64,000 nt of DNA from Salvelinus alpinus (Eukaryota; Chordata; Actinopteri; Salmoniformes; Salmonidae). Made by a program: the position numbers and the translations under genes. Numbering within the stretch: the first letter of the stretch is position 1; every line of letters begins with the position of its first letter. Positions 42,601 through 45,756 of this stretch are shown here, one piece after another. The notes under the pieces are model-generated. The model was not told where the DNA came from. It searched no databases and saw nothing but the letters and a program-made list of their open reading frames with translations. The stretch is taken from contig NC_092091.1 in NCBI RefSeq assembly GCF_045679555.1, forward strand, positions 90,234,770 to 90,298,769, in the 5' to 3' direction.

Positions 42601-45600
42601 GTCGGTTTCTTCATAGCATTCACTGTCGCCTTAAAAACAGACTCCAGATCAGGGGTAAAAATTTCTGAAATCTGACCCCTGTCATGAAAAGTGCTGTAGA
42701 TATTGTTCTGTACCACTCAGAGACAAAATTCCAACGGCTATAGAAACTAGAAAGTGTTTTCTATCCAATAATAACAATAATATGCATATTGTACGATCAA
42801 GAATTTAGCACGAGGCAGTTTAATTTGGAGACCCAAATATGCTAATGCGGAACAGCACCCCCTATAGTTCCAAGAAGTTTTAAGCCAATATTCTGTAAGA
42901 GGTTCTGGAACTCAAGCAGTAGAATATGTGAGGTGCTGGAACTCAGTTCTGGTGTTCTGTTCAATGTCAAGCTTGTGTATTTCCCTCACTGATTCAAACA
43001 GCAAATGGACACACATGTAGACACCAAATTAAATGCTGATAAAGAGTAAATTCTTCTGGTAATAATTTGTGCTTCAGTGTCTTGTCAGTGTTGGAAGAGA
43101 TACTCTGGAGCTGCTGCAGTGTGTCTGGGGCTGCTGTGTGTTCTCCTACTGGCTGGGATCACAGGCCTGTTACTCTACCGTGAGTTTGATATGTTCTCAC
43201 TCAAATATTCTTCATCATCAGTGGTGTAATGACCAGGGATCAATTACATTTACATTCCAGTCAATTCCATTCAGAAAGTACACCACATTTCAATTCCAGG
43301 AATTGGAAATCAATTGGAATTCCAGTGTACTTCCTGAATTGACTGGAATTGAAATGCAACTGACCCCAACCCTGGTCATGTCTGATTAACTTTTCCACTG
43401 TTACCTTGTTCAATGATCGTATTATTTCACAGAGAGAAACCAGTTGACCAGCTCCAACACCCTGACCAAAGAGAGGGACCAGCTACAGACAAGCGACAAC
43501 AACCTGACTGCAGAGAGAGACCAGCAACAGACTTGCAACAACACGCTGACCAAAGAGAGAGACCAGCTACAGACAAGATATAACAACCTGACTGCAGAGA
43601 GAGACCAGCTACAGACCAGATACAACAACCTGACTGAAGAGAGAGACCAGCTACAGACCAGATACAACACCCTGACCAAAGAGAGCTACCAGCTACAGAA
43701 AGAGATAGAACGTCTGAAACAATCTACAGTTGAGAAAGGTGAGTCAAATTGTCTCATGACTTTTCTGTTTGACAGTCTCTGTATCAGTTCACATGTCACT
43801 TACAAACAGGAAATTCAACTTATATTGAATGAAAAATGTGATAAACATTCTCCAACTTCCAAACCGTCCATTAGTTAGTGCCCTGTCTTCCTTGAGTGTC
43901 TGATTGATACTTAATTCAATGTTGTATTAAAGTGACTAAAGCAAGAAAGTTCAACTTACAGTGTGTCCGCGAGGTTGGAAGAAGCTTGGTAGCAGTTGTT
44001 ACTACGTCTCTACTGAGTACAAATCCTGGGAGGAGAGCAGACAGGACTGCAGAGACAGAGGAGCAGACCTGGTGGTTATCAAGAGCCAAGAACAACAGGT
44101 GTGTCAGAGAGAGAGAGAGAGAGTGACAAAGAAAGAGAGAACGAGAGAGAGTGACAGAGAAAGATAGAGAGAGTGAGAGATTGACAGAGAGAGAGAGAGT
44201 GAGAGAGTGAGTGAGTGAGTGAGTGAGTGAGTGAGTGAGAGAGAGAGAGAGAGAGAGAGAGAGAGAGAGAGAGAGAGAGAGATTGACAGATATAGAGTGA
44301 GAGAGTGAGAGAGTGAGTGAGTGAGAGATTGACAGAGATAGCGTGAGAGAGTGAGAGAGTGAGTGAGTGAGTGAGTGAGAGAGATTGACAGAGAGAGAGA
44401 GTGAGAGAGTGAGAGAGTGAGAGAGTGAGCGAGTGAGCGAGTGCGAGACAAAAAGAGAGTGACAGAGTGAGAGAGAGTGAGAGACAGAGAGTGTGAGAGA
44501 GAGTGAGAGAGTGAGAGAGATTGACATACATAGAGAGTGAGAGAGTGAGCGAGTGAGTGAGTGAGAGACAAAAAGAGAGGGATAGAGTGAGAGAGAGTGA
44601 GAGACAGAGAGAGAGTGACAGAGTGAGAGAGAGAGTGTGAGCGAGAGAGAGCGAGAGAGAGAGAGAGAGAGAGAGAGAGAGAGAGAGAGAGAGAGAGAGA
44701 GAGAGAGAGAGAGAGAGAGAGAGAGAGAGAGAGAGAGAGAGAGAGAGAGAGAGAAAACTATGTATTAACAATGTTGATTCTCTCCCACAACTGCAGACAT
44801 TAGTCAACTGGTTATGTGGAGTAAAGAAATATGTCTGGATTGGTCTGACTGACTCTGTTACTGAGGGGTCCTGGAAATGGGTGGACGACACACGACTGAC
44901 CACAAAGTAAGACATTAATGAATTCTGTGTCACTATGATGTCACTGTCTGGAGTAGTAGGTTCAAATTGGACAGCCTGATTCTATGTTGTTTCTCCTACA
45001 GGTATTGGAACAGTGGACAGCCTGATTCTATGTGTTGTTTCTCCTACAGGTATTGGAACAGTGGACAGCCTGATTCTATGTGTTGTTTCTTCTACAGGTA
45101 TTGGAACAGTGGACAGTCTGATTCTATGTGATGTTTCTCCTACAGGTATTGGAACAGTGGACAGCCTGATTCTATGTGTTGTTTCTCCTACAGGTATTGG
45201 AACAGTGGACAGCCTGATTATATGTGTTGTTTCTCCTACAGGTATTGGAACAGTGGACAGCCTGATTCTATGTGTTGTTTCTTCTACAGGTATTGGAACA
45301 GTGGACAGCCTGATTCTATGTGTTGTTTCTTCTACAGGTATTGGAACAGTGGACAGCCTGATTCTGTGTTGTTTCTTCTACAGGTATTGGAACAGTGGAC
45401 AGCCTGATTCTATGTGTTGTTTCTTCTACAGGTATTGGAACAGTGGACAGCCTGATTCTATGTGTTGTTTCTACTACAGGTATTGGAACAGTGGACAGCC
45501 TGATTCTATGTGTTGTTTCTACTACAGGTATTGGTACAGTGGACAGCCTGATTCTATGTGTTGTTTTTTCTACAGGTATTGGAACAGTGGACAGACTGAT

Positions 45601-45756: not shown

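Follow-up and report, generated by a model that had tools for sequence, protein, structure and literature searches.

Close tandem acceptors, NAGNAG among them, are neighbouring 3′ splice sites that compete with each other. Lectins of the CD209/CLEC4 type have necks of variable length. In the human IFI6 gene a minisatellite supplies several donors, as outlined in PMC4526556. None of the titles and abstract openings in the literature searched describes acceptor arrays in a lectin gene. Here we analyse arrays of this kind, which occupy intron 5 in a family of lectin genes: at some two dozen related loci of a single genome, one or both splice sites of this intron are present in many near-identical copies.

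Lectin genes of the window

The window, i.e., the whole stretch of 64,000 nucleotides of Salvelinus alpinus DNA that was analysed, contains two lectin genes, A and B; L009 and L010 are two further genes, also called C and D. The exons relevant to the analysis are the following:

43078..43179, + strand: transmembrane exon of lectin B
43433..43738, + strand: neck exon of lectin B, with 42-bp heptad repeats
43962..44098, + strand: exon 4 of lectin B, where the lectin domain begins
44797..44906, + strand: exon 5 of lectin B, central part of the lectin domain, with the donor GTAAGA after 44906
45624..45756, + strand: exon 6 proper of lectin B, YWYSGEPN...WICEK and stop codon (45754-45756)
17355..17487, + strand: exon 6 proper of lectin A

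Spliced lectin B scores 75 bits against the Pfam profile Lectin_C, whose curated cut-off is 22.6, and is by this measure a C-type lectin; the PDB matches of its lectin domain are CD205 (lymphocyte antigen 75), Mincle, DC-SIGN and their relatives. Lectin exons 4–6 are open in A, B, C and D, with neither stops nor frameshifts, and the reading remains open from the neck exon onward in A, B and C, and from the transmembrane exon onward in A and B. The usual partner of EPN in the sugar site of mannose-type C-type lectins is W-N-D. All four genes have EPN, but together with W-W-D, and this replacement in the last exons (45624-45753 in B, 17355-17484 in A) points to a possibly incomplete form of the usual calcium site.

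Repeats are abundant in the window: 47% of it lies in arrays with a period of at least 13 and at least three copies. Very long minisatellites are found at 22334-27453 and 50733-54021 (27 bp x 190 and 35 bp x 94, respectively), and telomere-like CCCTAA repeats, internal to the chromosome, at 49641-49857. Within the genes, the in-frame 42-bp repeats give neck exons of 306 bp in B and D, 810 bp in A (15138-15947) and 1314 bp in C. Ahead of its transmembrane exon, lectin A has a 31-bp array with 54 copies (12999-14688), whose counterpart in lectin B has fewer than two copies (~42899-42955).

A tandem array of acceptors in intron 5

The end of intron 5 is itself repeated in both genes of the window:

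44968..45645, + strand: 48-bp acceptor minisatellite of lectin B with 14 AG/GT junctions, located by TRF and junction mapping
45337..45383, + strand: 46-bp unit of lectin B, with a 2-bp deletion, dividing out-of-frame from in-frame acceptors
45384..45623, + strand: block of five units (5 x 48 bp) of lectin B in frame with the last exon
16551..17367, + strand: 48-bp array of lectin A, with 17 acceptors between 16588 and 17354, only the last of which is in frame; donor position 16491

TRF describes the lectin B array with a period of 48, 14.2 copies and 95% matches, and as a repeat it is far beyond chance. Each 48-bp unit consists of the end of intron 5, with a branch-like A, a pyrimidine tract and the AG, plus the first codons of exon 6. 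Tandem units of minisatellite length span an exon-intron junction in lectin B and in the 48-bp group as a whole, and every unit holds a splice-site match. The initial annotation had recognized fourteen tandem 3′ splice sites in lectin B, with a branch-point match about 24 nt ahead of each AG. The mapping agrees on both points: fourteen near-identical acceptors lie at 45001-45623, all 14 units have the AG, and in the unit consensus the AG ends 24 nt downstream of a branch-like A. The first eight AGs end at 45001, 45049, 45097, 45145, 45193, 45241, 45289 and 45337, and the last six at 45383, 45431, 45479, 45527, 45575 and 45623. Successive acceptors of lectin B are therefore spaced by 48 or 46 bp, as opposed to the 3 nt of a NAGNAG.

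Arrays across the gene family

Strong matches to the 48-bp array occur at four places in the genome, all on contig C6 at 90.25-90.69 Mb and corresponding to A, B, L009 and L010; the remaining matches are short and weak. With 94-99% similarity in intron 3 and in the 3′ flanks, A/C and B/D look like pairs originating from one segmental duplication.

More distant paralogues at C6:71-80 Mb have arrays of 46-bp or 44-bp units at the same intron-5/exon-6 junction, and some of them have, at the start of intron 5, an array of 39-41-bp units holding the end of exon 5 and the donor; counts from the searches for these arrays are lower bounds. We measured four 48-bp loci (~73 units), 13 46-bp arrays (~166), 10 44-bp arrays (~208) and 9 donor arrays (~429). 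The donor arrays are those of L012, L014, L016, L019-L022, L027 and L033, with ~10 to 115 copies of a 41-bp unit (39 bp in L014); that of L020 extends to the edge of the stretch analysed. In L016 the donor array is located at 1705-5804 (oriented), and within a single intron ~90 donor units precede 7 acceptor units, the AG being present in 6 of the latter. L038 has 30 acceptors ahead of its terminal exon. Shifting to an inner donor in 46-type loci leads to an immediate TAA, the frame having been read by eye. The terminal acceptor of the 46-type loci reads ACTGCAG, unlike the units of its own array, in all eight loci read.

The position of minisatellites relative to exon junctions was surveyed in 32 loci; exon 4 could be located in 21 of them and exon 5 in 23, and for exon 6 there was a model in 21. 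A minisatellite lies over the exon-6 acceptor or within 20 bp of it in 16 of 21 loci (10 of 21 with an 8-bp margin), a rate that is inflated because many loci were chosen via array matches. The same distance of 20 bp or less gives 0/21 for the exon-4 acceptor, 0/23 for the exon-5 acceptor, 1/21 for the exon-4 donor (2/21 when arrays of two-letter units are counted) and 4/23 for the exon-5 donor, the last being an underestimate since exon ends were extrapolated. A fairer sample is provided by L032-L038, which were picked by exon match with no array match as criterion: all seven have an intron-5 array, of the 44-bp acceptor type in six and of the donor type in one (L033).

Arrays of other periods touch the last exon in a few relatives. 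L024 (3509-4164), L025 (4202-4300) and L026 (3543-3917) have a 23-bp array near or inside it, and these copies may be broken, as the unit length is not a multiple of three. In L017, on C4, a 20-bp array of the exon-6 start (unit TGGAGGAGTGGACAGCCTGA) lies inside the last exon at 2334-2436 (oriented).

Reading frame of the upstream acceptors

Read in the phase of exon 5, the acceptors at 45383, 45431, 45479, 45527, 45575 and 45623 give 5, 4, 3, 2, 1 and 0 inserts, respectively, each of 16 residues and containing two cysteines, followed by the intact last exon. The earlier claims that the last six acceptors of lectin B are in frame with the lectin exon, and that they would add zero to five 16-residue inserts with two cysteines apiece, are thus borne out by reading in this phase and by translation. 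From the first eight acceptors, a stop is reached after 11-87 codons and no intact last exon results.

Extending this reading to 19 gene models whose terminal exon is intact, we examined 213 upstream AG junctions. Splicing to 17 of them would leave the last exon intact, and these 17 all belong to the 48-bp group: 0/16 in A, 5/13 in B, 2/13 in L009 and 10/27 in L010 (28 junctions with the terminal one). The corresponding numbers are 0/51 in six 46-bp models and 0/93 in nine 44-bp models, which include L019 and L020 with one or no upstream unit; in both groups, reading from an array acceptor runs into a stop in five codons or fewer. The resulting 0/144 outside the 48-bp group indicates that peptide insertion is not the general role of such arrays. 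Within this group, the size of the in-frame block (0, 5, 2 and 10 units in the four genes) can be attributed to the chance place of the 2-bp deletion variant; lectin A has no in-frame upstream junction because its last unit is of the 46-bp form. By simple arithmetic, a random 16-codon unit is open in ~46% of cases, and for three unit families there is a chance of ~0.4 that one or more will be in frame and also open. Since a length of 48 bp keeps the frame and a random unit is often open, the open frame of the lectin B array is unremarkable; it is a by-product of unit length.

Origin of the arrays

A minisatellite was probably seeded at the ends of a very short lectin intron 5, whose terminal acceptor is likely to be the main site. 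The ancestral intron would have been ~80-100 nt long, with short similar sequences flanking a splice site ~36-48 bp apart. Slippage or unequal exchange between these could have produced the first duplications, after which the arrays would have grown, shrunk and homogenised.

Intron length was measured with locus-specific patterns, those for L017 and L030 being designed without the donor GT. Among array-free relatives on other chromosomes, the intron measures 82 nt in L031 (C12) and 102 nt in L018 (C9), both with an intact donor, and 88 nt in L017, where the donor GT is lost. L030 (C12) has an intron of 87 nt, has likewise lost the donor GT and contains one extra unit, while L029 (C1) contains two. 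These loci form a graded series, from no extra unit in L031, L018 and L017 to one in L030 and two in L029.

Exact repeats on the donor side, between the exon end and the intron, were compared with those arising in shuffled sequences. Repeats of 10 bp at a distance of 39 bp in L011 and of 11 bp at 36 bp in L015 were equalled in none of 1000 shuffles, and the 8-bp repeat of L029 in 4 of 1000. The result for L018 is marginal (23/1000), and the donor-side repeats of L031 (151/1000), L034 (424/1000) and lectin B (822/1000) are within chance. On the acceptor side, the best similar stretches are 46-48 bp apart in four of five loci; they are short, and 36 to 249 of 1000 shuffles equal them. Judging from the shuffles, the seeding model has good support on the donor side and amounts to a suggestion on the acceptor side. 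Docking and selector sequences that might guide splicing were also considered, in the form of CTGACCAC on the donor side pairing with GTGGTCAG on the acceptor side, and the idea was dropped: the pairing is visible by eye in 46-type loci, and seemingly absent from array-free loci and from the 44-bp group.

Substitutions in the arrays and in the last exon

Substitutions were counted per position over units aligned to their consensus, units of one array not being independent of each other. The two bases of the GT are substituted in 2.6% and 2.6% of donor units, against a mean of 3.6%; those of the AG in 4.8% and 2.4% of 46-bp units (mean 2.2%) and in 1.4% and 3.3% of 44-bp units (mean 3.2%). Conservation of the splice dinucleotide above background is therefore found neither in the donor arrays (~430 units) nor in the 46-bp (166) and 44-bp (~210) arrays. 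None of the 73 units of the 48-bp group shows a change in the AG; as only ~1.3 changes would be expected from the rate at the other positions (arithmetic, two hot sites excluded), this neither proves nor excludes drift. The 17 in-frame 48-bp units have 2 synonymous, 16 nonsynonymous and 0 stop changes, and the 45 others 2, 37 and 4, respectively; stop changes apart, the nonsynonymous share is 16/18 in frame and 37/39 out of frame.

For exon 6, pN/pS is 0.72 in the 44-bp, 1.13 in the 46-bp and 0.94 in the 48-bp group, in a set restricted to loci with an intact motif and hence biased to intact exons; L021, which has a stop in exon 6, is excluded. With such values, purifying selection on the last exon is not demonstrated. 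Over exons 4–6, dN/dS is 0.47 between A and C, 0.53 between B and D and ~1.2 between A and B, the changes being few. An attempt to establish use of the last acceptor from such ratios was given up; the exon-6 values of 0.72-1.13 lend that acceptor little support.

Choice among the acceptors

The outermost donor and the last acceptor would form the main pair, selected by exon definition in an intron lengthened to ~0.5-4 kb, and the inner copies would be drifting decoys, perhaps with low-level use. We favour the last acceptor because the last exons are open and a distinct terminal acceptor is kept in the 46-type loci. Distances can be read differently: the donor is separated from the first acceptor by 94-97 nt in the four 48-bp genes (95 nt in lectin B, where the intron up to the last acceptor measures 717 nt). 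This is about the size of the intron in array-free relatives with an intact donor, so that under intron definition the first acceptor would be favoured and the array read through to a stop in the terminal exon, giving truncated lectins from genes that are partly or wholly broken. According to PMC9225289, alternative sites are paired closest across the intron when introns are short, with preference for the upstream 3′ site, and closest across the exon when they are long, and the upstream preference is significantly lower under exon definition; that study concerns internal exons, and applying it to a terminal one would be an extrapolation. Exon-6 pN/pS near 1 in two of the three groups would agree with broken genes, while the absence of stops and frameshifts from exons 4–6 of A-D and the distinct terminal acceptor of the 46-type loci speak against them, and we regard predominant use of the first acceptor as unlikely. 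Inner sites might also be corrected by recursive splicing, in which an AG/GT junction would regain a donor and be re-spliced to later acceptors until the last is reached. According to PMC8605326, the exons that take part in recursive splicing start with a functional donor. In the 48-bp arrays the AG is followed by G in 72 of 73 units and, one base further on, by T in 73 of 73. This GT, however, is already accounted for by the Tyr-Trp codons with which exon 6 begins, and GTATTG and GTACTG look like weak donors when compared by eye with the donor consensus. Moreover, a single unit of ~48 bp is probably too short for an intron, and such a self-correcting scheme seems highly improbable.

The initial annotation had gone further and proposed that acceptor choice diversifies the lectin, selection among the last six sites adding 0-5 inserts of 16 residues just before the EPN loop. 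Part of this stands, as the acceptors are real sequence matches and the lectin exons are open. In favour of the proposal, the frame is also open in L009 (2 inserts) and L010 (10 inserts), Lectin_C still matches lectin B with one insert (69.7 bits) or five (64.4 bits), QPD, a galactose-type motif in other lectins, is read in many inserts, and stop changes are absent from the in-frame units (0 in 17 against 4 in 45, too few to tell). The device itself finds no support: sister gene A has none of its 16 upstream acceptors in frame, the arrays of the other two groups give 0/144, in-frame changes are mostly nonsynonymous, the three larger array types show no special conservation of AG or GT, and every insert would bring two cysteines and hydrophobic residues beside the expected sugar site. 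Diversification by this route is very unlikely in our estimation. A bolder version, which we would rate as slightly more remote, makes the arrays of B, L009 and L010 a length-variable reservoir of in-frame acceptors: unit number would differ between individuals, acceptor choice would yield graded isoforms with 16-residue QPD/cysteine inserts beside the sugar loop, and L016-like introns, with ~90 donors and 7 acceptors, would be spliced correctly only through choice of the outermost pair by exon definition. Some use of upstream or in-frame acceptors is possible from the sequence. Most likely, the junction array is a drifting repeat and not a means of diversifying an immune protein.

With splice-site copies that are near-identical, position, rather than local sequence, should for the most part settle the choice among them. 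The lectin junction arrays are thus a natural test of how the cell chooses among identical splice sites: genes with 1 to ~30 acceptors and 1 to ~90 donors make exon versus intron definition, as well as the avoidance of decoys, open to experiment. They also call for caution in annotation, since gene predictions at such loci can invent inserts from the arrays.

Comparison with known systems

The lectin arrays share with NAGNAG sites the competition of neighbouring 3′ splice sites, but they are spaced by 44-48 bp instead of a few nt, repeat a branch-like A and a tract in each unit, and reach up to 30 upstream copies (L038). Like lectins of the CD209/CLEC4 type, the genes encode membrane proteins in which a neck of heptad repeats accompanies a C-type lectin domain; unlike them, lectins A-D combine EPN with W-W-D in the last exon and have splice-site arrays in intron 5. 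Intron gain by tandem duplication, as presented for the potato RdRp gene (PMC4974935), similarly involves tandemly duplicated DNA that holds splice signals, whereas here an existing short intron is lengthened and no new intron is apparent. The closest parallel is IFI6, in which a short tandem repeat also lies over an exon-intron junction with a splice site in its units, and two downstream units are used as donors according to the description in PMC4526556. The lectin genes of the window amplify the acceptor instead, and some of their relatives amplify both ends of one intron, family-wide. As far as their sequences tell, the lectin arrays are the acceptor version of a splice-site minisatellite of the IFI6 kind, with donor versions in relatives, extended over a whole gene family.
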